Source of the DNA: Mesostigma viride
Taxonomy: Eukaryota; Streptophyta; Mesostigmatophyceae; Mesostigmatales; Mesostigmataceae
Direction of reading: 5' to 3'
DNA length: 64,000 nucleotides
NCBI GenBank assembly: GCA_009746045.1
Contig: RPFO01000082.1
Coordinates: forward strand, 4,975,314-5,039,313
Shown here: in pieces, positions 81-64,000 of the stretch
Numbering within the stretch: the stretch's first letter is position 1
How the letters are laid out: every line of letters begins with the position of its first letter
Program-made: the position numbers and the translations under genes
Notes under the pieces: model-generated
What the model was told of the DNA's origin: nothing
The model's database searches: none
Seen by the model: the letters and a program-made list of their open reading frames with translations, nothing else

Positions 81-3000
81 TTAGACAGATAGACCGACTT
101 GACAGTCAGCATTCATGAGCTTCCTCAGTACATTGTACTGGGCTGGGGCCTTGTGTGGCAGCTTTGTCAATGCATCAGCAGGGTTCTCCTCGCCAGGGAT
201 ATGCTTCAAGTCAACCAAACTGGCCAACTCCTTCAGCAACAAATAATCCAGGTCCCGGCTCCTGGCCAGCTGCTTGTGAACAAACTGGACCATACCCATG
301 CTGTCTGTTAGCAACAACGTCTCCATCTGCAAGGTCCAAGGGGTAACTGAAGCCAGCTCCAGCATTAACTCCTTTATGTACAGGCTGGACTGGATCCCCT
401 CGCATATGGCCCTGCATTCTGCCACATCTGAACTGATACAGACCCTCTTCTGCAGTCTGCTGTACCAGCTGAACAAACTTGCCCTGCTCTGATAAAAAGC
501 AAACAGAGCAGCAGATCTCCCCCTGACCTTGGTAACCTGGCGAGCATCCATGGAACTGTCAACAAAGATCTCCAAGGTGATAGGCTGGGCAAAGTCAATC
601 CCAGACAAAATCAGATCAGGGGTACTCTCCACCAACCGGGCTATGACTCGAGGCTTCTCATCCTCAAGCACCTCATCAGGCATTCTGCTATGGACCATCA
701 AAGACGGACCACAGATGCTGGCAAACCAGGCCCACATGCCTCTCAACTCAGGTCCTGCAGCCTGGGTGATCTTCTCTGGCAAGGCCTTCACAATGGTCTG
801 TTTATAATCTCCTCCAGCCTGAAGCCTGATACTCCACTCCCCGTCCCTCCTGAACAGGGTAGCCTGCATTCCACAGAACACTACAGGCTTGTTGGGCTCC
901 TGCCACAGCTCCTTGCCCAGTGAAAACTTGCCACTGATGACAGGAATAAACTTCTTCAGCCAGGTCGTGGGGGCTAGCAAATGCAGATCATCTCCATGCA
1001 AACTAGCATACACTGGCAGACCCTCCCATTGGGCCAGCAGCAAACAGGGATCAACTGAAGACACTCTCAAGCCACACTCACTGATCAGAGCTTCCTGCAG
1101 CGTGAGTCTCCAGATGATTGGGCTCGACCTGAGTCCTTCCAGGCCCTTCAGAATAACCAGGAATTGTTGATGCAGCTCCAGCTTCCAGATGGCAGGCACC
1201 TCAACACAGTAAGGCTCATCCTGCTTCCACACCCTCCTGGCCACTTCTGGATCAGATTTTAAAAATGCCCTCTTGAAGTCCAGCAGCACTGATGACATAG
1301 CTGCTCCCCTGTTCAGCAACCCCACGTAGAGACATAGCAAAATTCTCCATGTGTCGTGTAGCATCCCTGGCGTGTATAGCTCCTCTCCTGGCAGACTCCC
1401 CGTGCCGTGATACTCATTCAGGACAGGCCTGACATGGGGCACTGATACCTCATCCACAACCTTCCTCTTCAGCACAAATCTCAAAGCAAGCTTCCTTGAT
1501 GCTGGGGGACGTCTGTCTGTTGGTGCAGCACACTCAAACTGCAACCACTCCTCCAATGCCTTGGAGAAGGCGAGCTTCCAAGCCTCAAACAAAGTAGGCG
1601 AGCTCATCTCTTGGACCAGCTGGTCATATGTCAAAGGAGAGTGTGCAGCAAGGCTCCTGTGAGTTATGCCAATACTGCTGGGGTGCAACACAGCTGGAAT
1701 AACCAAACTGGCCGCTGGGGGCACCTCCCCTTCATCCCATTTTACACCCTTGACCGGCTTGGCCCTGCACCTGACTGGAAATGTTGTCCTGAAATTTTCT
1801 AGGGGAATCATCCCCCAGCCATCTCTTCTCAGAGCTGTAGCTCTGATAGAAATCCCAGGATTGCCCAGAAAATTCTGACCCAAAATCACAGGGCCATCAT
1901 AGTCCTCTAGGACAAGGAAGGTCACATCCACACCCATGACAGGGGCAGTAACCTCTCCCAACACCCTTAGATGCGTCCTACCACTGAAATCAGACACCCA
2001 GGGGCAACTTGGTTCTCCGACCAGCAGTTCTCCTGTATGCTGAGGTCCCATGACAGAAACCTGTGCATTGGTATCTATCTCCATGGCAGCTACCTCAGGT
2101 TCATCCAACTGGACAAGCTTGGACACCTTAGGCTCCTTCTTGGCTCTTTGCAAAGCCTGTACAATATCTGATAGACGCACACCCCTAGGCCTGGTGTCGG
2201 GCCGTTCCGGAGGTGCAGCCTGTCCGCCTGCTTGCCCAACCACCGTATGTGAAGGTACCCCAGGGGCCGGGCCAGGGTCACCCTGAGGGCTCGATACAGC
2301 TGTAGCACCCTGATCAGGAAGCTCCACGTCACCCCCGCCTTGTACACCAGCGGGCACCTGGAAGAGGTCTCCTTGATTACCTCCCCGGGGACGGATCTTT
2401 GACCAGGACAGACGGTGCACTGCTTGGGAGCCATCAATGGCCACCCAGCACTTATGGCCAGCGGCTTCTACTCGGGTCACCACCCCATCATGCCAGCTGC
2501 CACGTTTCCCTGGAAAGCTTGGTTCCTTCCACACAACAACCTGTTGTCCAACGTTAGGTTCTAGGACACTCCAGCCCTTGTCTTTCTGCCTCAGCTTGAG
2601 GAACTTGGCCTCTAGCTTCTCCTTCCATGCCTGCTCAGCATCAGCTGGCAGCATCCTGGTATGCAGCATAAGAGGATTGATGGCAATGTCACCAAAGAAC
2701 ATGGGAGTCCTCAGGTTCAGCCTGTCCTCCACAGAACGTAGCCATGCAGATGTCACAATGGCAGATGACGTCCTTGGAATCCTCTCCACCAGCAGCACAG
2801 TCTTGATCTCTTGGATGGCTCTCTCCACCACCCCTTGCTGGCCGTGGCTCTCCCTGGGTGTAATCAGCAACTCTGGAAACTCTGGCAGGTTCTCACAGCA
2901 CTCAAACTGAATGTCACACTGCAACAACTCCAACCCAGGGTACCTGCTCCTTGTCAACTTCAGAGCAGCAATCAATGTAGGCTTCTCCATGTCAGGCAGG

Positions 3001-3287
3001 ATCTCTAGGGTCTTGTACTTGGTATATCTGTCCACTGCCACCAGCAGCTTCAAACCCCTGATTCTCTGAATATCTACCTGCACATGGCCTGGCTGCAAAA
3101 TAGGAGTCCTGGCATGAGACTGCTTGGGCTTTCTAGCAACTAGCCTGCACTTGCAAGCTTGAGCAACCTGTTGGCAGATGGAGTACAACTCACTTCCTCC
3201 CAGCCGTCTAGCAACTTGCAAAGACTGAGCTGCATGGCCAAACATGGTATGCAACCTTGAGGCAATGTCATACAAGAGAGAAAACTT
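81..3287 (-). CDS. Retrotransposon pol: integrase, protease, copia-type RT, RNase H
   Basis: The open frame follows a TAA and has no clear ATG; positions count from a TTG at 3275, giving 1064 residues. Residues 8-45 look like the HHCC pre-integrase zinc site (H9, H14, C34, C41/C43). The integrase core has a plausible triad D68, D121, E151, followed by a basic C-terminal domain to about 295. Residues 395-480 resemble a retropepsin: EIDTNAQVSV (D401) then VILGQNFLG. Copia-type RT spans about 600-800 with DFKRAFL and the catalytic LHGDD. RNase H spans about 900-1045 with FVDSS, SSDVAECRAI and LLTDS. Protease downstream of integrase is not the standard copia order (PR-IN-RT-RH). The active-site DTN in place of DTG may mean the protease is weakened. 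Confidence 0.82.
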   Translation of the reverse strand, partial: KFSLLYDIASRLHTMFGHAAQSLQVARRLGGSELYSICQQVAQACKCRLVARKPKQSHARTPILQPGHVQVDIQRIRGLKLLVAVDRYTKYKTLEILPDMEKPTLIAALKLTRSRYPGLELLQCDIQFECCENLPEFPELLITPRESHGQQGVVERAIQEIKTVLLVERIPRTSSAIVTSAWLRSVEDRLNLRTPMFFGDIAINPLMLHTRMLPADAEQAWKEKLEAKFLKLRQKDKGWSVLEPNVGQQVVVWKEPSFPGKRGSWHDGVVTRVEAAGHKCWVAIDGSQAVHRLSWSKIRPRGGNQGDLFQVPAGVQGGGDVELPDQGATAVSSPQGDPGPAPGVPSHTVVGQAGGQAAPPERPDTRPRGVRLSDIVQALQRAKKEPKVSKLVQLDEPEVAAMEIDTNAQVSVMGPQHTGELLVGEPSCPWVSDFSGRTHLRVLGEVTAPVMGVDVTFLVLEDYDGPVILGQNFLGNPGISIRATALRRDGWGMIPLENFRTTFPVRCRAKPVKGVKWDEGEVPPAASLVIPAVLHPSSIGITHRSLAAHSPLTYDQLVQEMSSPTLFEAWKLAFSKALEEWLQFECAAPTDRRPPASRKLALRFVLKRKVVDEVSVPHVRPVLNEYHGTGSLPGEELYTPGMLHDTWRILLCLYVGLLNRGAAMSSVLLDFKRAFLKSDPEVARRVWKQDEPYCVEVPAIWKLELHQQFLVILKGLEGLRSSPIIWRLTLQEALISECGLRVSSVDPCLLLAQWEGLPVYASLHGDDLHLLAPTTWLKKFIPVISGKFSLGKELWQEPNKPVVFCGMQATLFRRDGEWSIRLQAGGDYKQTIVKALPEKITQAAGPELRGMWAWFASICGPSLMVHSRMPDEVLEDEKPRVIARLVESTPDLILSGIDFAQPITLEIFVDSSMDARQVTKVRGRSAALFAFYQSRASLFSWYSRLQKRVCISSDVAECRAICEGIQSSLYIKELMLELASVTPWTLQMETLLLTDSMGMVQFVHKQLARSRDLDYLLLKELASLVDLKHIPGEENPADALTKLPHKAPAQYNVLRKLMNADCQVGLSV

Positions 3288-3673
3288 TTATTGTCATTAT
3301 TAGCACTCAAGGTATGTACAGATCCCTTATGTACAGGAGGCACCAGGGTCGTGCCTGTCAGACTGTCTCCAGCCCTATCCTCATCCTGACCATCCTGTGC
3401 CAGTCCTGCACGGTCAGAATGCTTCTGAGATCCACCTGGGTCCACATCACCAGGTCCTACCTCAGGCTCAGCACCGCCATGGCGGGCACGTTGGCGAGTA
3501 ACCACTGCAGCTACAGCTGGCATACTCTCTGTGGTAACCAAGCTTGCCCCATCGTGTCCAATAGGCTCTTTCACTAGAGCATGGGGCTGCCCCTCACTGC
3601 TGTCACTAGCAGCTTCATTACACACCCCTGGGGGCACCCTCCAGGGTTCAGGGATGTGTGCAGGCTCAATCAA
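3140..3673 (-). CDS. Linker ORF between zinc knuckle and pol
   Basis: The open frame overlaps the end of the zinc-knuckle ORF and the start of the pol frame. It is acidic and rich in Ala, Gly, Asp and Glu, with no recognised domain and in particular no protease motif. It may be a gag-pol linker read through by frameshifting, or simply noncoding sequence in a decayed element. No ATG opens it; the first possible start is a TTG at 3673. Confidence 0.4.
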   Translation of the reverse strand: MIEPAHIPEPWRVPPGVCNEAASDSSEGQPHALVKEPIGHDGASLVTTESMPAVAAVVTRQRARHGGAEPEVGPGDVDPGGSQKHSDRAGLAQDGQDEDRAGDSLTGTTLVPPVHKGSVHTLSANNDNKSFLSCMTLPQGCIPCLAMQLSLCKLLDGWEEVSCTPSANRLLKLASAG

Positions 3674-4116
3674 TGATCAGCAGCCTTGCCCTTGCCCTTG
3701 TCCTGGGATGGACCAGCCTTGTCCTTGCTGCCACCCTGAGCTGGCTTGCTCTGACCTTCCTGCCTCAGGTACGAGGGACACTCATTCCTGAAGTGACCCT
3801 TCCCCTGGCAGAAATAACATTCCACCTGACTGATGTCCCGTGAGGTCCCACTGCTGGGCCCAGCCTTGGGAGGACCACCCACCCTCTTGAAGTCAAACTG
3901 GGACTGTGGATGTCCCGACTTCGGCGGGGTCCCCCGTCCAGCCCTTCTGTCACGCCCCCTCCTGGACCTTCCTCGACCCCTTGAAGAGGTCTCAGGCCCT
4001 CTCGAGGACGCTGGGCCCCCGTGGCCCGATCCCCTCATGGACTTAACCGTGGGTTCAGTGGCCTCCTCATCATTCTGACGAGGGCGCTTACCCCCACGTA
4101 CTTGCCGCTGAAACAC
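3670..4116 (-). CDS. Gag nucleocapsid region with CCHC zinc knuckle
   Basis: This frame carries an Arg/Gly-rich stretch, then CYFCQGKGHFRNEC, a CX2CX4HX4C zinc knuckle typical of retroelement nucleocapsid, then a Lys/Gly/Ser-rich tail. It continues the upstream gag ORF after a -1 shift at a run of five G near 4090-4095, where both frames encode the same region. The role by family is packaging of element RNA in virus-like particles. The frame change may be programmed or a mutation. Confidence 0.75.
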   Translation of the reverse strand: MFQRQVRGGKRPRQNDEEATEPTVKSMRGSGHGGPASSRGPETSSRGRGRSRRGRDRRAGRGTPPKSGHPQSQFDFKRVGGPPKAGPSSGTSRDISQVECYFCQGKGHFRNECPSYLRQEGQSKPAQGGSKDKAGPSQDKGKGKAADH

Positions 4117-4855
4117 TCATACAACTGATCCGTCATGGCTGCCCAGCCATGGACCTGTCGCATGTGGATGGTCACATTATCCATGGTGACCGGATCCAGC
4201 TGCAGCGACTTGAGAAAGTCGCCCATGGCCATCCGATCTGCGACGAAGAAGCCCTTGGCCATGGCGTCCTCCCTCAGCTTGACGAAGTCTTCAAAGGCGT
4301 GGACCACTAGTTGCCCCTTGATGGGCTTGTAGTCCAGGTATTCTTGCTTCAGGTGGGACCCATCTATGGTCCTCTTGTCACTCAGGAACACCCTGAGTCG
4401 CGTCATAAACGCCGCCCAGGTGTCCCCCGCCGCGTGTCGCTCCCGAACAAACTTGAACAGCCGCCTCGCCGACTGCCGTATGTAGGCACTAGACGCCAGG
4501 ATGCGAAGCTTGTCACCGTTGTATATCTCCGTGTACAAGTTCATGTCCTCTAACATCCTCTCAGCATCCCGGGGCTGCCAATTGTCCTTGATGGACTGAA
4601 ACTGGCCTAGCACCGCGTACCCCTCAGCAACGGTTGGTCGCTTAGGCGCCGCTTGATCTGCGGCTGGCGCGTGCTGCCCGCCCTGCGATCCTTGGCTCTG
4701 ATTATCTGGCACCTCAGCCTGGTCTCCCAGCGCCTGGCCGTCCCCGCGTCCATCGCGTCCACCGCGTCCATCGCGTCCATCTCGTCCATCCAGCCCAGCG
4801 CCGCGCCGCCGAAGCCCATAAAGCCCGCTTGTTGGTTGATAGCTCCATCCTCCAT
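4035..4855 (-). CDS. Copia-type Gag capsid protein
   Basis: The ORF is open from 4931. Its middle and C-terminal part look like a UBN2/gag-type helical capsid: segments such as LFKFVRERHAAGDTWAAF, HAFEDFVKLREDAMAKGFF and TDQLYECFSGKY resemble copia Gag spacing. The N-terminal part is low complexity, with repeated Asp/Gly/Arg (4735-4800) encoded by a 9-bp microsatellite. The true start is uncertain: an ATG at 4855 lies in a different frame, and the gag frame may begin further up. The ORF ends where the zinc-knuckle frame takes over. Confidence 0.65.
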
Positions 4856-4957
4856 GATGGCCTCTGTTCAGATCTGCTACAGCCAGCCAAGTGGCCAAGC
4901 AGCAATTAAAGCAATATAAGCTACTGAACAAGAAAGGAAAGTGCCAAGTGTTACCAC

Positions 4958-5878
4958 TCAGGCAAGACCACCACGGCTGGCCCCAGGCGCGTCCTGGTTC
5001 TCCTTGTCGCTGTCGTCGTCGCTGTCGCTCACCACAATCAGCTCTGGTACCCTGCTACCTGCTGCGCCGTCGTCGACCCGCTGTCGGCCCGCGATGACTG
5101 AATCGTCACCGTTGGTAAAGTAGACAGGTGACAACCCGTCGTTGGCACCTCGCGGATTGTACGTTGGCACCTCGTGGTCGCCGAGTGCCTCGTCGCCTAG
5201 CCCAGCGACACCCCCTGCTCCTACCTCAAGGTCACTCTCGTACCTAAGAGGTGCAAACTCCTCCCAACGCGTCACACGAACGCGAAGGGGCGGGGGCAGT
5301 TCCTGAAAAGGAACTCTTACTCGCTCTGGAAACCTGCCGACTCTTGTTGCGCGCGGTCCTCCGGCGATGGCTTCCGCTGTCGCCCCGACCTCTGCAAGCC
5401 GCCTGTGATGCTCCGCTCCGCGTCGTTCACGCCTAACTGGACCCGCTGCAACACCCTCGTCGCCGATGCCGCCTGCGAAAGCACGTGGTACTCCCGCGCC
5501 CGCTACTGTCGGCACAAACTCGTGTCGCCCTGCGCCAGCTGCCTCCGCAACCTCGCCTCGCCTTGCTGCCAACTCCGTCCGCACTCGCTCTGCTACTGCA
5601 GTAATCACCGTCTGGATGCCGACCAACCCGTGAAGCTCCTGCTCAAGGTCGTCGATGCTCCGGTGCTCCGGAATGACGATGGTTTGTACGTGTCGCAGAA
5701 TTCGCTCCCAATCTTCGACCTGGTCGTCGACGAATTGCACGAAGCTGCGATTTACAGGCGGACGATCTGCAAGCAATAAAGATAGATCCCGAACGACACG
5801 GCGTAATTCAGGAGAAATCGAACCCCCAGCAGACTGCCGAAACCGGAAATCCTGCTGCCGTTGTTCCTCCTGCACCAT
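4958..5878 (-). CDS. 5' ORF of the copia-type element, unknown function
   Basis: A 306-residue ORF whose stop lies only about 27 bases before the gag frame opens, same strand, so it is probably part of the element. The N-terminal 130 residues are helical and Arg/Glu-rich (LRRVVRDLSLLLADRP, DQVEDWERILRHV). The middle is Ala/Gly/Arg-rich. The C-terminus is very acidic and serine-rich (VVSDSDDDSDKENQ), like a CK2-type phosphorylation tract. No enzyme motif is visible. It could be an extra gag-like or chaperone ORF. The start ATG at 5878 was chosen because it is the first in frame. Confidence 0.5.
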   Translation of the reverse strand: MVQEEQRQQDFRFRQSAGGSISPELRRVVRDLSLLLADRPPVNRSFVQFVDDQVEDWERILRHVQTIVIPEHRSIDDLEQELHGLVGIQTVITAVAERVRTELAARRGEVAEAAGAGRHEFVPTVAGAGVPRAFAGGIGDEGVAAGPVRRERRGAEHHRRLAEVGATAEAIAGGPRATRVGRFPERVRVPFQELPPPLRVRVTRWEEFAPLRYESDLEVGAGGVAGLGDEALGDHEVPTYNPRGANDGLSPVYFTNGDDSVIAGRQRVDDGAAGSRVPELIVVSDSDDDSDKENQDAPGASRGGLA

Positions 5879-5899: not shown

Positions 5900-6360
5900 T
5901 CGTCGTCAAAGCTGCACACCGCAACCGGCAACGACCCTCCTGGCCGTTCCGCTGAGACTGGTTGTAATTTGAGTTAAGCTTTCTTCGCACACGCAATGTG
6001 AAGGATATTGTTGCAATGCAGCAATGTGTGAATATGGTTGGAAACGGAGCTTTGTTAAATCGGATAATGTTTACAGCGCTCAACACTTGAGACTTGCACA
6101 CGAGCTTGCCAAGTCAAGGCACAACACGTGAGGCGGGCTCGCAAGAGATGCCCATTTGGCACTGGCCTATTGTTTATATACTTGTGCACTGTGCTTGCTA
6201 GTCCTGAGCAGCCTAGGAGGCCTGCTCAGTAATAACACCCCGGTACAGTATTCACTACCTGTACAGCGCCCAGTTCCTATACAGTAGGTCTGCCATACAG
6301 GCACAGTGACCACAGAGCACAGTCCACAGTGACTATTGCATCTGCACCTAGAAGTCCAGG
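5900..6360 (-). promoter_or_regulatory. Putative 5' LTR / promoter region of the copia-type element
   Basis: Noncoding sequence lies between the Ty3-type element's last stop (6665) and the first ORF of the copia-type element. On the minus strand it has TATATAAA at 6180-6173, about 300 bases before the first ORF. I see no second copy in the window to prove it is an LTR, nor a convincing TG...CA boundary. Confidence 0.3.
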
Positions 6361-6664
6361 ACTAAGCCTGCGGTACCAACAGACCACAGGTTAAGGTTCC
6401 TATTTCCTGCGTACGACGTATCAATCCAATACCGTCGTAGGTACAGCACCTAATTCCTGTCAGCCCAGGAATTACTGTCGACCCCATATGTCGTCGGCAA
6501 ATATTCACGTCCGACTTAGAAGAACAGCCGGCTCGCGCTCGCGCGCGACCGGGAAGTCGGAACGCCATAACTTTCTTGATACTTGTCGGAATGAACTCGT
6601 TCCGGTGCCGCTGGAATCGCAGAGATATGCCGAATCAGGATCACGCCAATGCGCTTGGCGTTAA

Positions 6665-7700
6665 CTACCATGCCTCCTCCTCATCGTCGGCCGCATACCC
6701 AGCAGCGTTCACAAAGACCACAGAACCAGACGAGCCCTCGGCACCCATGGCCCGGGCTCCAGTGTGGTCAACAGTGGTAGGCATGGCGTATCGGGATAGC
6801 ACATCGGCGTTGACATGGTCCTTGCCGGCCCGATGCACAATGGTCATGTGGTACTCCTGGATAATCATGGCCCATCGGGCGAGCTTACCCGTCAGGTTGG
6901 TGTTGGTCATTAGCCACTGAAGCGGCTGGTGATCTGTCACCAGAGTAAACACGCGCCCAAATAAATACGGGCGAAAGTGCTTGATGGCCCACACCACAGC
7001 CAGTGCCTCCCCCTCATAGGAAGAATACCGGCTCTCCGCTGGGTTGTTGCTGCGACTAGCATAAGCAATAACGTGCTCGCGCCCATCACCATCCTTTTGC
7101 GCCAAGACCGCACCCAGTCCTACCTTGGACCAGTCGGTATATAACACAAATGGCAAAGCATAGTCAGGGGCGCGCAGAATCGGTGCCGACGTGAGCTCCT
7201 GCTTGATTGTCTCGATGGCGCGTTGCTGTGCGGGACCCCACGCCCACACGCACCCCTTCTTGAGTAACTCGGTCAAGGGCTTCACCTTGCTGCTGAAGTT
7301 CTCAATGTAACCTCGGTAATAGCCAGCCAAACCCAAATACGCCCGCACCCCTGAGACATCCGTGGGTACGGCGGCCTGCGCAATGGATTCGACCTTGGCG
7401 GCATCAGGCGTCCGGCCACCCGGCACAATCTGATGACCAAGGAATGAGAGGGTCCGCTGGGCGAACTTGCACTTCTCAGGGTGCAGCCGCATATTATGCT
7501 CCTCGAGAGCCAAGCGAACCTGCTCCAAGTGCGCCAGGTGCTCCTCAAATGTCGCGCTAAAGACGATTACATCATCAATGTAACAAGCGGCGAAAGGAAG
7601 ACCTGCAAGCACTTTGTCCATAGCTCGTTGGAAAACAGCACTAGCGTTGCGGTGCCCAAAGGGCATGCGCACCCACTCATACAAATTGCCGCCCCCCAGA
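6665..7700 (-). CDS. Ty3-type reverse transcriptase C-terminal half and RNase H
   Basis: Continues the RT of the preceding frame after a one-base disruption at a C6 run (7692-7697 plus strand; G6 on the coding strand). Residues near the start read YEWVRMPFGHRNASAVFQ, then CYIDDVIVF (catalytic DD), then the thumb motifs FLGHQIV and YLGLAGYYRGYI. The Ty3-type RNase H follows: VLYTDWSKVGLGAVLAQ, SSYEGEALAVVWAIKHFRPY and VTDHQPLQWL, ending near HVNADVLSRY. The frame then stops after an acidic tail with no HHCC zinc finger and no DDE integrase. Confidence 0.88.
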
Positions 7701-8958
7701 ATGCAAGCTTCCGCTGATCCTCCGGCGCAACTGCGATCTGATGAAAGCCGCTACGCAGGTCCAGCGAGGACACAAACTTCACATGAGGAGATATCTTATC
7801 CAGGACATCATCCACACGTGGCATGGGGTAACGGTCCACGGGTGTGTGTGCATTCAGCAACCGCAGATCGGTGGCCATGCGCATACCCGTCCATGCCCCG
7901 GTGATAGCGTCCTTCTTGGGCGCAACGACAACGGCAGCAGCATAGCTGGAGGAAGATTGCCTGATGATACCGGCATCCTCTAACTCCTTGCATTGCTCGG
8001 CTACAAAATCCAACTCGGCCTGACTCAGGCGATGCTGGCGTCGGAACAAAGGAGTGTCAGTGTCCAATGGAACACGCATGGTCCCACCATTGAAACACCC
8101 CAGTTCATCACTTGTGAAAGCGAAGGCCCCCCTTGCAGTGCCTAGCCACTTTAGCATGGCTGAGCGCTGCGCATCAGAAAGGTGTTCGCCAATAGCCCAG
8201 GGGTGCGTATCCGCGGGATCACCCACAGCTACCGCATGTGCCTCAAGATGCGGCGCCCTAGCCGCATCGTCGTGGAACAAGGAAAAGGCTGCCACACCTG
8301 GTGTGACACCCACCGCCGGAGCCTCGCGTGCCGCACGGTGTATTACCCGATGCAGCGTGGGCTCGCCGGCCAGCACGGTGCTGGTCAGCAGGGCGGTCAT
8401 GAGAATGATAGTCCACACCTGTCGCAGACGCCACCCCCATGCTGATGAAGTCCCCGTCGCTGCAGGGCGCTTCAGTTTGGCTGCACGCGCCTCAACCTGC
8501 TGAGGCGGATTGGCTGGGGACGCCCCCCCAGACTGGCGCACGGCAACCGATGCAAGCAGCACATACCCGACCTGCAACACCGACATAGCCTGGCCTATCA
8601 AAGACCAGCGCTCACTCTCGAGCACGCCCGGCAGCGCCGAGGCCCCGACATGAAAACCCATGCTGGCCTCACGAAATTCTGCGGGTGGCTGCACCAACAG
8701 ACCGGTGGTAGTGTCCCAAACGAGACCCTTACCCCGATCACGGTATGCTGTCGACCCTTGGTAACTGACCAGGGTCGGCAGTGCACACATGGGGCTCCCG
8801 ACCCGGTTGACGCGTGCATACGGTGGGCGATCCTCGCTATCCACCTTCTGCGTGACTAGGTGGGAAGGCAATGCTACCTCCGCAGACACACTCGGATGCT
8901 GCCTTGCTACGGCCCCAAGACCGCCTGCACACCGGTCGCACACGCCACGTTGGTCCAA
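7690..8958 (-). CDS. Linker and Ty3-type reverse transcriptase N-terminal half
   Basis: This frame overlaps the 3' end of the gag-protease-methyltransferase ORF by about 50 bases and is -1 to it. The first 260 residues are a linker of unknown role with two hydrophobic stretches (around VGYVLLASVAV and WTIILMTALLTSTVLAG). Then comes a typical Ty3 RT start: RRQHRLSQAELDFV, LEDAGIIRQSSSSYAAAVVV, APKKD, MATDLRLLNAHT, YPMPRVDDVLD, SSLDLRSGFHQI, ending at KLAFWG. The expected continuation is in another frame downstream of a G6 run, so this copy carries a +/-1 indel or a sequencing error there. Confidence 0.82.
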
Positions 8959-11900
8959 TAGGCACGCAAACGATGCGTGAGCCCACCCAGCCCTGCGTTG
9001 TCACACACGATGGGCTCCCCCAGGAGTGCCACGATTGTAGCCCAGTCCTCCCGCACCGCCTGATGTGGGCTGTCACCCGCCACAACGTTCTCAAACAGAT
9101 ACGCAGGCGGATGGGGCTGACGCGACTGCAACAGTCCCACCACACGCAACAGTTCCCAGAACAGCGCGCTACGCGGATCGGCTAGCCCCCGCCCTTGCCC
9201 TGCCTGGCTCAGGCCCTGGCACTCCCAACCCGCGATTACCAAGTCGATGGCATGATGCCTGCGCAACAACTGCTGCACCTGCACCTCACCGATGGCTCGG
9301 ATATCTTGAGGACATTCCCCAAACGGGTCACGCCATGCTGATGGCGGAAACTGCGCGGGATACTCTCGCGACAACACGCCACAGTGACTGAAGTACACCT
9401 GACGCGCCTTGTGCGATGGCTCTACCGCGATGAGTTTACGGCACACGCCGCCTGCGGCCAAAAAGCCTGCAATGCCCCCTCCGATCCCCGCAAACAGTTC
9501 CAACACTACCGCACCCTTGGCAAAATCAGGGGCCTGCGGTAAGATTGCAGCAGAAAAATTACCTTGGGCCTCCGAGACACCCGGTTGCACCAAAGTGAGG
9601 CCATGGCTGGCCATCTGAGGAACGGTGACGACGGCTTCAGTCACCCGCTTGCGCATAGCCAGCTGCCGCGTGGACGTCACAGCATCCAGCGACCACTGCG
9701 TGCGCATCTTGGCAATGCTCGCCGTTGGCTGAGGCAGCACCGTCCGATGCTTGTCCCACGCCGATGAGCCCGCCGCCCGTACCTCCACCATGCTGACCTC
9801 CACCACGCCCGCAGCCGCGGAAGGGTTGAGGCGTGCAGCCCCGGCTGAAGAACTGAAGCATGAGACCGGCACACTGGCCCGCTTCAGGCCAGCCCCATCC
9901 CAATCAGGGATGTAAGATGCCTCCTCCGCCCTATAGTCCACCTGAACCATGGCGCGAGCAAGGACATCCACCCCGAGTAGTGCGGAATATCCACACTTGT
10001 TGACCACCAGCGCATACGCGGACACGGTGGTCATGCTAGAGGCGCGCAACGGATTGAAAATCACGTTGACTTTAACCGCCGTCATAGCGTACGGCTTACT
10101 AGCCGGACCCTGCCAACCTGACACAGACACGGGGCTTTCTACTAAGCCACCGTTCTCGTAGGTCAGGTTCAGCATGGTGGCCAAGTCTGTGCTGATGACT
10201 AGCGGCTGAGCACCGCTATCAAGCTTGACTGCGCCAACCAACGGACATGTCACCATGTCGCTCCATACATCTCCACAGGCTCCAACTGCTTGGAACGCTA
10301 TGGACGGCTCACCATTGGGGTATGGAACCACCGTGGGAACCTGGGGAACTGCACTAGTGCGCTGCTGGCTACTTGTGCTGACCACTCCCGCTTGCACCAC
10401 GGGCACTGCGGCTTCTACCGGCTGACGCCCGTAGGTGACGGACTCAGAATTGCGCAAGGTGCGCACATCATGCCCATCTGCGAACAACTGGATCTCGGAC
10501 ACAACCGACCCCAGCCACTCAACCCCCTTCTGCCCGAAGGTGTCGACCACCTGCCGTGCTGAAAACATGGGTACGTCCACAATGAACGGCATTGGGTACA
10601 CAGGCGCCAATCGCCTACGCTGCTCCAGCCCAGCAGGGTTCGCATGCTCAAAAGCAGATTGCACCCCAGCCAGCGGCATGGAAAAGGACGCGGGCAACTG
10701 CCCGGCAGGCAACATGGGTGCCTGCTGAAAAGAAAGCGGGCTGCGTGCCTGCTTGCCTTTGGTAGCCTCCGCAGCGTTGATCTCGACGTCACCCGGCATG
10801 GGCGCCCAGAATGGGTCCTCCCGGTACACCGTCGCGAATTGGTTGGGGGGCGCCGTCGCCTCCTCACCATGCTTGATGGCAGCCACCTGGGCTTCCATCG
10901 AGTCGGTCTTGCCCGCCATCTCGGCGAAGTGGACCGTCTTGATGCCCGCGGCTGGACACTTGTTCATCAGGTGCCACTTCGTGTCTGCCCCATGCGGCTT
11001 CGTGCAGCGGCTTGGACACTCGCGACTAAGGTGCCCATCCTTGTCGCAAAGGTAACATTTACCGCGTGACGGGGTGGGTGCGCCCAGCGCGCCTTGCACG
11101 CCCTGCGCCTCCTGAGTCCCATCCGATGACGGCGGACGACCGCCTCCGCCTCGACCACCACCGCGACCCCGACCACCGTAGCCACTGCCGCCGCCACCAC
11201 GACTGACACCGCCGCTGCCACCCTGACCGCCACCGCCGCTGCCACCCTGACCGCCACCGCCGCTGCCCCCGTGACCGGCGTTGCCACCACCCTGAGTGCC
11301 GACATATTCACCGCGCCCCGCACCAGGCAGCCGCTGGCCACCCTTGACCGCGATGGCCTTCTCCATCTCAGCCATCTTCTTGCGCATCTCAGCCAGCTCA
11401 GACGAGATACCCTTCTCGCCTTCCGCACGCTTCCTGAGCAGCCGCTTGAATGCTGCACAGAGAGTCACCAAAGTCCACTCCCCACCGGGCGGCTCCGGAA
11501 GATCGATGGCCAGCAGGGGCACTGCACTCCGCCATAACCGGCAAGCCTTGGTCTGCGTATAATCAGGCACTTTGCCCGCAAACGCGAGAAGCCGGTCAAG
11601 GGAGAAAGCCGGATCCTCACCCTCGGCGACGGTGAACGCTCCATTCCATTCCGCGATGGCCTTGACGTGCTCAACTGGGTACTCCAGCCGCAGTTGCTGC
11701 CACAGCTGCTCTGCCGGGTCGACATCGAAGATGATCGAGTCGAGATCCGGTGTGCCCATGTCCGTGAGCGCAAACCATATGTCCGTGCGATGACATCGGT
11801 CCACGAGCGCTCGGTAATGCTGGACCAAAACCTGGACCTTCTTCTTGGTCAGGTCATGGAAAAAAAGGTGAATAAAATCCATCACCATCTCATGGCGAAG

Positions 11901-12983
11901 AGGATACCCCGAGGCATAACGATAAGTGTTACAATGAGCTCGGAAGAGCTCATAGGCTTCCTCTAAAGTCGCACCCGTGCCTGCTGAGGTGAACTTCTCG
12001 CGAAGCTCCACCTTGGGCAGCGATGGCACACGAGTGGATTCGCCATGCACGCCGTACGGCATGCGGTGGGGTCGCTGGACGTCGTCGCCCTCACCCCATG
12101 GTATGCTGGCTACCTCCCGATCGACTTGGCCCCAGCCGAAGTCTGACCGAGTGCCGCCAAGCCTGGGCCGCCCTGCGGTGCCACCCAACGGCGTTGCTGC
12201 CGCCGTCATGGGTGGCCGACCTGTGCTAAACAAGCCACCTGATGCTCCCCCCCTGGGGGCTGCACCATACCCGCCGCGCCACGATAACGTGCCTTGGTTG
12301 GGTGCCCGTAGGTTCCCCCCCAGCGTATAAGATGCGTCGGCAGTCGACCGGGTGCCTACCCGACCGACGTTCGGCTGCAGCTCGTCATCCTGCGCCATTT
12401 CCCCGTCGCCCCGCCGTTGACCGCTTGGTCCGACGCGTGGCTGACTGGGCTCAACGTTGCGTAGTGGACCTGTCCCACTGCGCTCTTCGTCGAAGTGTCC
12501 GCGTTGGTCGCGCAGCGCCTCATGTCGCCGCGCTTCCTCGGCAGCGGCCTCCTCGTCGGCAGCCTGCCTGGCCTCGGCGTCGCGTTGGGCCGCAGCTTGG
12601 CAGGCGCGTGCAGCTTCCGTGGTTGCCTCCGCCTGCCGCCGTTGCTCAGCGCGCTCCGTAGCACGCCTCGCTTCAGCCGTAGATTCCGCGCGCTCCAAAG
12701 CAAGTCGCACAGTTTCTTCAACAAGCGTCGCCTGTTGCGATAACTGCGTCGCTTGCTGAGCTCGGAGTGCCGCCAGCTCTGCCGCTTGCTCTTGCAGCAG
12801 GCGCAGCACTTGGGTAAGAGCACCACCGTCCCCTGCCGAAGAAAGGGAAGGCGCTCCATTACCTAACAAAGCGGTGTCCGCACTAGTGCCGAGACGACCG
12901 CTGGGCGGGTCAGTTGCTTGACCGCCCGTAGCTGCCGGCGCTGACCCACCACTGCCTGATGCTGTGGGGTCAGTTCCTGACAT
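8907..12983 (-). CDS. Gag-protease-C5 cytosine methyltransferase polyprotein
   Basis: The start is taken at the ATG 12983 (MSGTDPTASG); the frame is open to 13109. Counting from 13109: residues 105-205 are an Ala/Glu/Arg coiled coil; 340-600 a helical gag; about 690 a CCHC knuckle (CYLCDKDGHLSREC); 955-1070 an aspartic protease with VKLDSGAQPLV and ALLGVDVL. Residues 1195-1395 match a C5-cytosine methyltransferase: motif I VVLELFAGIGGG, motif IV DLVIAGWECQGLSQAG with the catalytic Cys, motif VI YLFENVV, and a motif VIII-like THRLRAYWTN. The short VI-VIII spacing and LFENVV are DNMT3-like. The Pro of the usual PCQ is Glu here, which may impair catalysis. A target-recognition domain and motifs IX-X are not seen before the stop. 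Confidence 0.85.
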   Translation of the reverse strand: MSGTDPTASGSGGSAPAATGGQATDPPSGRLGTSADTALLGNGAPSLSSAGDGGALTQVLRLLQEQAAELAALRAQQATQLSQQATLVEETVRLALERAESTAEARRATERAEQRRQAEATTEAARACQAAAQRDAEARQAADEEAAAEEARRHEALRDQRGHFDEERSGTGPLRNVEPSQPRVGPSGQRRGDGEMAQDDELQPNVGRVGTRSTADASYTLGGNLRAPNQGTLSWRGGYGAAPRGGASGGLFSTGRPPMTAAATPLGGTAGRPRLGGTRSDFGWGQVDREVASIPWGEGDDVQRPHRMPYGVHGESTRVPSLPKVELREKFTSAGTGATLEEAYELFRAHCNTYRYASGYPLRHEMVMDFIHLFFHDLTKKKVQVLVQHYRALVDRCHRTDIWFALTDMGTPDLDSIIFDVDPAEQLWQQLRLEYPVEHVKAIAEWNGAFTVAEGEDPAFSLDRLLAFAGKVPDYTQTKACRLWRSAVPLLAIDLPEPPGGEWTLVTLCAAFKRLLRKRAEGEKGISSELAEMRKKMAEMEKAIAVKGGQRLPGAGRGEYVGTQGGGNAGHGGSGGGGQGGSGGGGQGGSGGVSRGGGGSGYGGRGRGGGRGGGGRPPSSDGTQEAQGVQGALGAPTPSRGKCYLCDKDGHLSRECPSRCTKPHGADTKWHLMNKCPAAGIKTVHFAEMAGKTDSMEAQVAAIKHGEEATAPPNQFATVYREDPFWAPMPGDVEINAAEATKGKQARSPLSFQQAPMLPAGQLPASFSMPLAGVQSAFEHANPAGLEQRRRLAPVYPMPFIVDVPMFSARQVVDTFGQKGVEWLGSVVSEIQLFADGHDVRTLRNSESVTYGRQPVEAAVPVVQAGVVSTSSQQRTSAVPQVPTVVPYPNGEPSIAFQAVGACGDVWSDMVTCPLVGAVKLDSGAQPLVISTDLATMLNLTYENGGLVESPVSVSGWQGPASKPYAMTAVKVNVIFNPLRASSMTTVSAYALVVNKCGYSALLGVDVLARAMVQVDYRAEEASYIPDWDGAGLKRASVPVSCFSSSAGAARLNPSAAAGVVEVSMVEVRAAGSSAWDKHRTVLPQPTASIAKMRTQWSLDAVTSTRQLAMRKRVTEAVVTVPQMASHGLTLVQPGVSEAQGNFSAAILPQAPDFAKGAVVLELFAGIGGGIAGFLAAGGVCRKLIAVEPSHKARQVYFSHCGVLSREYPAQFPPSAWRDPFGECPQDIRAIGEVQVQQLLRRHHAIDLVIAGWECQGLSQAGQGRGLADPRSALFWELLRVVGLLQSRQPHPPAYLFENVVAGDSPHQAVREDWATIVALLGEPIVCDNAGLGGLTHRLRAYWTNVACATGVQAVLGP
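11080..11330 (-). repeat. Gly-rich tandem repeat inside gag
   Basis: About 250 bases encode repeated Gly-Gly-Ser-Gly and Arg-Gly-Gly units just before the CCHC knuckle. At 11215-11280 there are near-identical 24-base copies. Such RGG-like tracts commonly bind RNA. Confidence 0.6.
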
Positions 12984-13109
12984 GTTGATGGTGGTATCGA
13001 CCCTGGAGAGCTCCTGCCCGTCGGTGTCGACGCCCGTGTTGGCACAGCCTGCGTGGCTTGCCAAAAACGCTGTGACCGACCTAGTGTGATATGACATAAA
13101 CTGCCACAA

Positions 13110-14395
13110 CCACTACCAAGTAGCAACGGTCTAATCTGAAAGACTTAATGGTTGATCAGGCCACTATGTGTGCTAGTCTTCCCCAGAAAACTGCACACCG
13201 TCTCTCTTTGCTGAAATGAAAATGTTCCTTTGCAGATGGAGCTAGTCTCTTCGAGTAATGAAAAGAGGGCTCTCAGCCGAGGACAAGGAACTGTCCCTCG
13301 TGCCTGATGACCACCTTCTTGATCCCCTTGTGTACCGTCGCGTGCCGCGTTTGAATATCCTTGCTGGGGCGTTAGCTAGACGCTCCAACTACTCTAATTG
13401 CGACAATATGATGGTGCAAGAGGGTGCTTTTGCCTCCCCTGCTATAGAACAATGCTTTCACAACACACACTTTGCACAGTCTGATGATGAAGCCGCACAT
13501 GCGGAATTTATTGAGAAAGTTAATACAATTACAACACGTTGATAGTCTCAATATCGATGCACTCCATGCTCACGAGCCCGCAGTTAGGCAGCGCTCCATG
13601 ACATGCTACCGGCCTTGCTCCCAAGGAAAGGGAGAAACACGAAGGCCACTAACGAGAGACTCGAAGAGACTACACGCTGCGTGAGAGTCCTCTTCGACTA
13701 TGAACCAAACCATTCGTCATGCCACACGCATGACACACGCCACACTTGTCAGTCCAGCCAGGAATGCCAAAACTATCTTGCTGCCTGAACCATGCAAATA
13801 GAAACCGCATTCCAGTTGCCGTCCTGGCTTTCTACCACACATGCCAACAAAAGCAGGAAGGCATCCCGACAAATCTAAATTGCTACCCTGTTGCCGATCT
13901 CATCTCCTAGAGGCTCCGGCATTTCTGTCCCTGGGAATGTCCGGCATTGAGTCACGTCCACCAAGGTCGAAGCATAATATCCTTCAGACAATCTGCACGC
14001 TCACACCTTGCGTGTGAGTGGCCCAGCAAACATTGCGTCTAATCGTTCCTTTCTAGAAGAAATCCCTTTGTAGGGCTGCCAACGATTTCGCATTCATTCC
14101 AGCGATCTGGCTCCGCACTGCATATTGTCCTTTTCCATTTTCTGTCCAGTCCTCATAACGTTGACCCGCTATTCTACACCACAAAGACACCTGGCCTGTC
14201 AATAGCCTCGGCGCTGTTGAAGTCCAGCAGTCCACTAACACGCGTATGATCCTCTCGACGCTGCGCACTTGTGCTGCCGTCCGCTCAAGTCAGTGCTGCG
14301 CGCCCAGCTGTGCCTGGCCCGGCGCGCGTGCACGTACACTTTCGTCCACTCTTATGCTGCAAGTGCTAGTGTCCCCCCCCGGTCACTAGCCTTTG
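13110..14395. other. Intergenic, no gene recognised
   Basis: I see no convincing ORF, RNA gene or tandem array here. The part next to 13110 may contain the 5' LTR of the Ty3-type element, but no second copy was found for comparison. Confidence 0.4.
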
Positions 14396-15560
14396 TCGAA
14401 AATGCGTAGAAAACAAGTTCCTTGCGCACGTCACCGGTCTTGTGCATAGTGGGCGCCCGGATGACATAGCTCGCGTCCGTGACATGCAGACATATGGCTT
14501 GACTGCCTGGCTATCGAGGCCCGTGCAGTGGGGCTTGAGGTCAGCAAGAAGACAGAGGCCCTGGCGGTTGGGCTCACCCACCCCCCGCCACCCCTCTATC
14601 TCCTCGACGGCTCTCGAGTCCTGTATCGGGACCGCGTCAAGCTGCTGGGCAGCCTGCTCCCCAGCTGCGAGGTTGATGTGGACCATCGCATCTCCCTCGC
14701 CTGGCACGCTTTACGCCAGTACCGGGCCCTGTGGCGCAAGCCCCTGGGCAAGATCGAGAAACAGGACCTGTTCAAGGTCCTCGTCCTTCCTGCTCTCACG
14801 TATGGGGCCGAGACGTGGACCCTCACCGCCGACCTGGCCCGCAAGCTGGACGGCGCGGTCACCAACATGCTGCGTTCCATTTTCAGAGTAGGATACGCTG
14901 CTCATGTCCGCAACGAGGACCTGTATCAGGGCATGCCATATATCAAGGAGACAACCAGCGCAGGCCAGAAATCGGGAGAATCCGGACCATGGTAGCTCGA
15001 GCCTGCCGTTATCTTGTCCGCGTGTTCGAGTCGTTCAGGATGATGAAGATGAATGGTGATGGAAATGTGTATCCTTGTGCATTGAAATTATGGCTGGCTT
15101 ACGTGTAGAGCGACTAGATGACCTAGACGGTGGGGCCGGCATATATCACCAGCACCATTAAGCAGCGGCGCCTGCAGCTAGTAGGGCACTTAGCTCGCAC
15201 CAACCAGGTAGACACCTCACGTGGCCCCCCCGCAGGTCTGCGACCAGCTCAGCCTGGCCGGCACCTCCTGACACGTGGGCCGGGCCCAGTGATGTTAGAC
15301 GCCGCAAGGCCCGCACCTTCAAACAACAGCTAGTAGAGGACATGGGGGGCCTAGGCCTCTCCGTGATTTGGACGAAGATGATGGACAAGACCAAGTGGGC
15401 CCAGGTCATAGAGGACAACGAGCCCCCCCCTGTGGGGAAGCGCCCGCGTGTGCAAACCCGTGGGAGGCACGCCAGACAGGTCCCCTAGGGCAGCGTGAGG
15501 CTGTCTACATAGATGTAGTAGTTAGAATGCTGTTAGATAGATGTCGTAGGTAGCGGATGT
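14396..15560 (+). mobile_element. LINE (non-LTR retrotransposon) 3' fragment
   Basis: The plus frame from 14528 (about 155 residues) resembles the end of a LINE reverse transcriptase: VKLLGSLLP, then ALRQYRALWRKPL, KVLVLPALTYGAETWTL and NMLRSIFRVG. A later frame at about 15140 reads IKQRRLQLVGHLAR, the usual C-terminal tail of such elements, and about 15340 reads GGLGLSVIWTKMMDKTKW. Frames are broken and the N-terminal part, including the YADD region, is missing, so this is a dead 5'-truncated copy. Related pieces recur at 33360-33640, 33900-34440 and 36570-36870. Confidence 0.75.

Positions 15561-42031: not shown

Positions 42032-64000
<21,969 letters not shown>

Follow-up and report, generated by a model that had tools for sequence, protein, structure and literature searches.

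A C5-cytosine methyltransferase domain within Pol of a Ty3/gypsy-type lineage of retrotransposons in the green alga Mesostigma viride

Retroelements that carry cytosine methyltransferases

DNA methylation usually silences transposons, and an element that keeps a methyltransferase (MTase) under selection reverses that relation. DNA methyltransferases (DNMTs) have been described in Gypsy elements of charophytes and in DIRS and LINE elements of dinoflagellates, with methylation of the element's cDNA proposed (PMC5890265), and DNMT3 embedded in retrotransposons was cited for streptophytes and dinoflagellates in 2025 (PMC12344493). DNMT3-bearing Gypsy elements are a kind already known from a charophyte. 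Here we describe a Ty3/gypsy-type retrotransposon with a C5-cytosine MTase domain in a 64,000-nucleotide stretch of the Mesostigma viride genome (contig RPFO01000082.1, positions 4,975,314 to 5,039,313; hereafter the window). An initial annotation of the window had pointed to MTases captured by long terminal repeat (LTR) elements in charophytes and dinoflagellates; the precedent is real, the charophyte elements being LTR (Gypsy) elements and those of dinoflagellates DIRS and LINE elements, according to PMC5890265.

KnitGypsy-Dnmt3 from Klebsormidium nitens, also a green-lineage alga, likewise carries a Dnmt3-related MTase inside a Gypsy-type Pol open reading frame (ORF), and purifying selection acts on that MTase too (PMC5890265). 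KnitGypsy differs in its repeats, which that paper describes as DIRS-like, whereas the window element and one family-B copy examined here have ordinary direct LTRs. Our elements of families A and B also end in a C-terminal PHD finger, a term absent from the main text of the KnitGypsy paper (PMC5890265), and our elements are set apart by Glu-Cys-Gln (ECQ) in catalytic motif IV and by their presence in at least 150 places. The dinoflagellate SymbioDIRS-Dnmt3 and SymbioLINE-Dnmt are also retrotransposons with a cytosine MTase, and de novo CG methylation by the SymbioDIRS domain was shown in yeast, but they belong to element classes with a tyrosine recombinase or a LINE endonuclease and to another host lineage (PMC5890265). 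Gypsy elements of stramenopiles share a chromatin-reader domain with ours, a chromodomain or a Tudor domain (the latter C-terminal); here the reader is a PHD finger, and a cytosine MTase is part of the same polyprotein (PMC12477816). The same source describes a DNA transposon that carries a ParB-MTase gene and mentions comparable ones from green and red algae (PMC12477816). In titles and the beginnings of abstracts we found no report of an element combining an MTase with a PHD finger, nor of a gypsy MTase from a chlorophyte, and our literature search likewise returned none of Glu replacing Pro in the catalytic motif IV; most subscription papers lay outside the scope of this search, so these absences are weak.

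A methyltransferase shared by three element families

A C5-MTase is a fixed part of the Pol polyprotein in this Ty3/gypsy-type lineage of a green alga. It lies between the protease region and the reverse transcriptase (RT) in three families, is under purifying selection in them, and is carried by a lineage that has recently multiplied. In the window, the gag-protease frame (ORF 1, 1,400 aa; Table 1) runs without a break into the MTase, as initially annotated. A profile search against the C5-methyltransferase family, suggested at the same time, gave a significant match of residues 1202-1342 to PF00145 (E 4e-11, above the curated cut-off; profile positions 3-111 of 324). The NCBIfam dcm model matches the 216-aa MTase piece at 1.6e-12, below that model's cut-off, and the top hit of a single-sequence PDB search was 4onj ('DNA methyltransferase', 1.9e-5), which we take to be a plant DRM. 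The C5-MTase motifs I, IV, VI, VIII, IX and X are present in order (I-VI through the Pfam match; VIII, IX and X by eye). On these matches and those of a three-family profile against PDB (see below), a chance resemblance was rejected.

The domain reaches further than first drawn. Motifs I-VIII do lie within 8907..9520, the range originally assigned, while a stretch resembling a target recognition domain (TRD) and motifs IX and X continue at 8557-8781, within an ORF (7567-8958) that had been read as RT only and also holds the MTase C-terminus. In the naturally open copies L022, L012 and L016, motifs I-VIII run on uninterrupted into this C-terminal part. Since the TRD-like stretch and motifs IX and X are in frame there, the MTase domain extends past the end of ORF 1.

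Searching the genome with the 216-aa MTase stretch of the window yielded 421 candidates, of which 150 were scored, and the MTase thus stands in at least 150 places; matches on small contigs may be redundant assembly. All scored matches cover 215-216 of the 216 residues at 100% identity (rounded) and contain no internal stops. We then compared 19 element loci, all picked by their MTase, for the protease-MTase-RT order that the initial annotation had proposed to look for. A protease-region match precedes the MTase in 19/19, and the MTase C-terminus and RT follow it in 18/19 (L017 is the exception). An element spotted by its RT at the edge of L015 is a second copy of family C, in three frames, and it carries the MTase in the same position. 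Copies lacking the domain, previously named as the sign of a chance insertion, were not seen, although the searches were queried with the MTase and such copies are therefore uncountable. That the domain is a mere passenger of a single copy, or entered it by chance, would fit the broken state of the window copy, but we find it scarcely credible: the MTase holds one position in three families, where purifying selection acts on it, and the scored candidates are near-identical. A single-copy insertion was accordingly rejected on the shared order of the 19 loci and the 150 scored matches.

The MTases of families A (that of the window), B and C (L016) are 64-74% identical. Compared pairwise (one copy each, 332 codons), they differ at 0.18-0.27 of nonsynonymous sites (pN) against 0.74-0.77 of synonymous sites (pS); at this pS the synonymous rate dS is saturated, so that the dN/dS of 0.09 for A and B is a rough upper guide. 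These three sequences do not vary in the motif IV Cys, in ENV of motif VI or in the cores of motifs VIII, IX and X. In 28/28 copies inspected, which had been found through motif I, the motif IV Cys, ENV and the motif VIII sequence HRxRAxWTN are kept; the exceptions beside them are a V-to-G change adjoining ENV in L015 and an A-to-G change before motif IV in L017.

Pol is naturally open in two copies, L022 (2,012 aa, family A) and L012 (1,637 aa, family B). In both, matches above the respective Pfam cut-offs cover the MTase, RT, RNase H, the H2C2 and core domains of integrase, and a C-terminal PHD finger (PF00628; 1e-8 in L022 and 9.1e-9 in L012). L022 also matches protease, though weakly (E 0.1). 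RT, RNase H and then integrase follow one another in both, which is the Ty3/gypsy Pol order. Neither a chromodomain nor a PWWP domain matched at E 0.1 in these two Pol ORFs, and the PHD finger stands in the position of the former. A host gene lying beside the element was rejected as the source of the MTase, which shares one frame with RT and integrase. The LTRs of a family-B copy are 99.7% identical over 725 b, plus further pieces, and those of the window element (~1.25 kb) are 97.8% identical by BLAST (9 substitutions in 1,232 aligned sites, with 18 gap columns). In L024 with its flanks (~14 kb), a 5' LTR was seen but no LTR pair.

As a separate observation, the N-terminal part of gag in L022 is about 35% identical to that of the window copy (L022 6785-8620 against window 11000-13109), and the remainder (protease-MTase-RT) about 99%. 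Two gag modules on near-identical protease-MTase-RT parts point to exchange of gag by recombination.

The overlap of MTase and RT frames first noted in the window is not the basic layout. We compared the junction at the DNA level in 13 other copies besides the window: the one-base frame difference occurs in the window copy and in 8/8 siblings with the same tail, and is absent from 5/5 other family-A copies. Among the 150 scored copies, 34 (window included) end in the frame-broken tail, as judged from the match end, with eight of them and the window checked in the DNA; 30 of the 150 lie in an open frame of 2,074 codons (counted by hand), and L022 is the one of these that was scanned for domains. 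The spread of the frame-broken form, apparently as a sub-lineage, suggests that it is helped in trans or that loss of the MTase is tolerated.

Relationships and possible role of the enzyme

A profile of the A, B and C MTases matched DNMT3A best in PDB (2.3e-7), then 4onj, DNMT3C and HhaI, with DRM2 also matched. These matches bear on whether the substrate might be RNA, such as the primer tRNA or the element's genomic RNA. Pol proteins generally handle RNA and a tRNA primer, and the search with a single sequence matched a tRNA (cytosine38) MTase weakly (E 0.31); the family profile, however, matches DNMT3A, DRM2 and HhaI, and none of its 49 PDB matches names DNMT2 or a tRNA MTase. We therefore regard RNA modification as very improbable, and DNA methylation is the predicted activity.

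The phylogeny called for in the initial annotation resolved the group itself but not its deeper placement. The three retroelement MTases form one clade (support 100/98) next to phage enzymes and DNMT3A (88/86), apart from the host DNMT1 and from virus-like Dcm genes of the same genome. The join had support of 81/82 when L034 was left out, and with HhaI also removed the clade took no settled position within the phage and DNMT3A group. Topology tests (p-AU) rejected neither a join with DNMT3A (0.09) nor one with host DNMT1 (0.052); long branches were flagged. Tree and profile together suggest a DNMT3-like class for the MTase, an origin not being indicated by the tree. Phage DNMT3-like MTases, which are in the nearest tree group, differ in having PCQ in motif IV (5/5 in the tree alignment) and no retroelement domains that we saw. 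A tblastn search of a phage collection matched 40 records, but in no case was as much as 80% of the query covered; the best by E-value among the 20 of 40 matches listed is Pelagibacter phage HTVC134P (37.7% over 105 aa, E 2e-10). No close relatives were found in plasmids, prokaryote contigs or viral contigs, the contig scans reaching mainly close relatives. L034 (C1562:57800-61000), on a 103-kb contig, is a second C5-MTase; it is divergent, and its N-terminal region is long and charged.

We propose, with a probability of roughly 0.5, that the Pol-borne MTase serves the element's own insertion. The enzyme would move together with RT and integrase and would carry out de novo methylation of new element cDNA or of the DNA where the element inserts; the PHD finger, of the type reading histone H3 unmethylated at K4, would keep the integrase at silent or CG-methylated nucleosomes; and host DNMT1 would maintain the methyl marks. 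With the marks maintained, new copies could land quietly and do little harm. The element may in this way chemically mark its own DNA upon insertion. The nearest PDB structures to the PHD finger are those of BAZ2B (6.9e-16), Lid/KDM5, BAZ2A and CHD4, which we take to be mostly readers of H3 unmethylated at K4, and DNMT3 enzymes read H3 in the same state through their ADD domain. A stricter form of this proposal, in which one polyprotein is a reader-writer unit (a DNMT3-class MTase plus a PHD finger for K4-unmethylated H3) that supplies de novo CG methylation for upkeep by host DNMT1, with ECQ as an active variant, seems to us unlikely. With its histone-reader domain, its naturally open frames and its at least 150 places, this green-algal case lends itself to tests of self-methylation and of targeted integration.

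Several observations weigh against the proposed self-methylation. The spread of frame-broken copies suggests that an intact MTase in cis is unneeded for every copy, and the integrase and PHD evidence is confined to families A and B. A search for the mutation spectrum of CG methylation yielded 6 private CpG transitions in two families together, which are too few changes. The KnitGypsy-Dnmt3 domain was inactive in yeast, a test that its authors call inconclusive (PMC5890265). Finally, motif IV reads WECQ in 28/28 copies inspected from three families, with Glu where Pro precedes the catalytic Cys elsewhere, including 13/13 comparison enzymes of the tree alignment; this replacement could weaken catalysis. 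It may even mark lost activity, the MTase fold being kept as a DNMT3L-like module in Pol that binds DNA or RNA or recruits other factors. We consider this possible but doubtful, since the motif IV Cys, ENV and the VIII, IX and X cores are invariant among the three families, and a role confined to binding would have no obvious need of them.

The assembly has a candidate gene for the maintenance step of the proposal. This DNMT1 gene (L028 3862-9858) is a single long open frame of 1,998 aa, whose best PDB relatives, presumably plant MET1, reach 1,033 bits; the DNMT1 group that comes next, which we take to be mammalian, stands at about 490. Beside it lies an ORF (L028 493-1362) that we presume to encode a coproporphyrinogen-oxidase-like protein. 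A Pfam search of the genome scored 123 of 415 candidates; among the loci opened from it (L001, L002, L028 and L034-L042), a partial look, none outside the elements resembled DNMT3. The rbcL of the assembly (L055) has Rubisco large chain 1gk8, presumably of Chlamydomonas reinhardtii, as its best match (1,053 bits), ahead of entries that we take to be from land plants (about 1,009-1,031 bits), a ranking that on its own would point to a chlorophyte. Among algae surveyed in a review, DNMT3/DRM homologues were found only in one red alga and one charophyte (PMC9861306), and a ChloroDNMT group, often with a PWWP domain, is described from chlorophytes and charophytes (PMC12344493). If Mesostigma has no DNMT3/DRM of its own, the element would be a candidate source of de novo methylation.

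The enzyme might instead act in trans on host chromatin or competing elements, raising methylation genome-wide and not on its own element; for host genes, the initial annotation had raised this idea. At least 150 MTase places in one assembly would suit such a role, and a similar possibility was raised for Symbiodinium by the authors of PMC5890265. Against it, two elements have observed/expected CpG ratios of 0.78 and 0.84, and the window one of 0.69, values that show no strong CpG loss; we judge action in trans quite improbable.

MTases of another type, Dcm-like (IDLFAGLGGF, FPCQSFS), occur in many places of the assembly (L001, L002-L008 and L035-L039, on C1468, C35, C47, C64, C1579, C1790, C446, C463 and others). 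A Dcm-like frame of 364 aa is found with equal score in 10 places, and 6/7 of those fetched lie on contigs shorter than 45 kb. In appearance, these MTases resemble genes carried by a mobile element, virus-like or otherwise.

Layout of the window copy and its surroundings

The window copy, whose parts are listed in Table 1, is itself damaged. A second, younger LTR element interrupts it at 6666/6667, and a further insert of ~1.3 kb lies in the integrase region; the integrase and PHD parts, which fall outside the window on its left, are broken, and the PHD finger lacks one Cys. With these insertions and the damaged integrase and PHD finger, the window copy is defective, though other copies are open. 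No obvious target-site duplication was found between the two flanks of this copy, the one examined.

Table 1. Parts of the MTase-bearing element and of the element nested in it (window positions unless a locus is named)
Feature	Position	Strand	Basis or remark
5' LTR, window element (family A)	13253..14484	minus	direct repeat with L031 62-1311 (C557:4969375-4970624)
3' LTR, window element	L031 62-1311, beyond left edge of window		
ORF 1: gag, CCHC knuckle, protease-like stretch, MTase motifs I-VIII; 1,400 aa	8907..13109	minus	
CCHC zinc knuckle CYLCDKDGHLSREC	11016..11057	minus	PF00098 E 1.8e-4
Aspartic-protease-like stretch (VKLDSGA ... ALLG)	9951..10238	minus	weak Pfam matches, E 0.056 and 0.068, below cut-off
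C5-cytosine MTase motifs I-VIII	8949..9506	minus	PF00145 E 4e-11; best PDB chain 4onj, 1.9e-5
Single MTase motifs	I 9474-9506; IV (WECQ) 9198-9248; VI 9078-9110; VIII 8949-8981	minus	motif names by eye
MTase C-terminal part: TRD-like stretch, motifs IX and X (by eye)	8557..8781	minus	next frame; no Pfam match
ORF 2: MTase C-terminus, linker, RT start	7567..8958	minus	PF00078 E 7.8e-4, below cut-off for that part alone
ORF 3: remaining RT and RNase H	6665..7684	minus	PF00078 1.8e-19, PF17917 1.1e-39
LTR of younger LTR element nested in the gypsy element	5972..6666	.	other LTR L031 4578-5273, left of window
Internal ORFs of nested element	81..5878	minus	copia-like order, by eye only

The LTRs of the nested element form a 696-bp direct repeat with 99.7% identity, and gypsy homology picks up beyond it with a 4-base overlap. 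Among its ORFs, a CCHC knuckle in ORF 3670-4116 is the sole match above a Pfam cut-off. Just outside the 5' LTR of the gypsy element, an ORF at 14531-14992 resembles by eye the end of a LINE-type RT and has no Pfam match. Far to the right, at 56702-60711, lies a pair of copies in inverted orientation that share about 80% identity over 4.1 kb, with one ORF each (57170-58510 and 58764-60158) that has no Pfam match; they are flanked by a 381-b inverted pair (54807-55187 and 60806-61186) of 96% identity.

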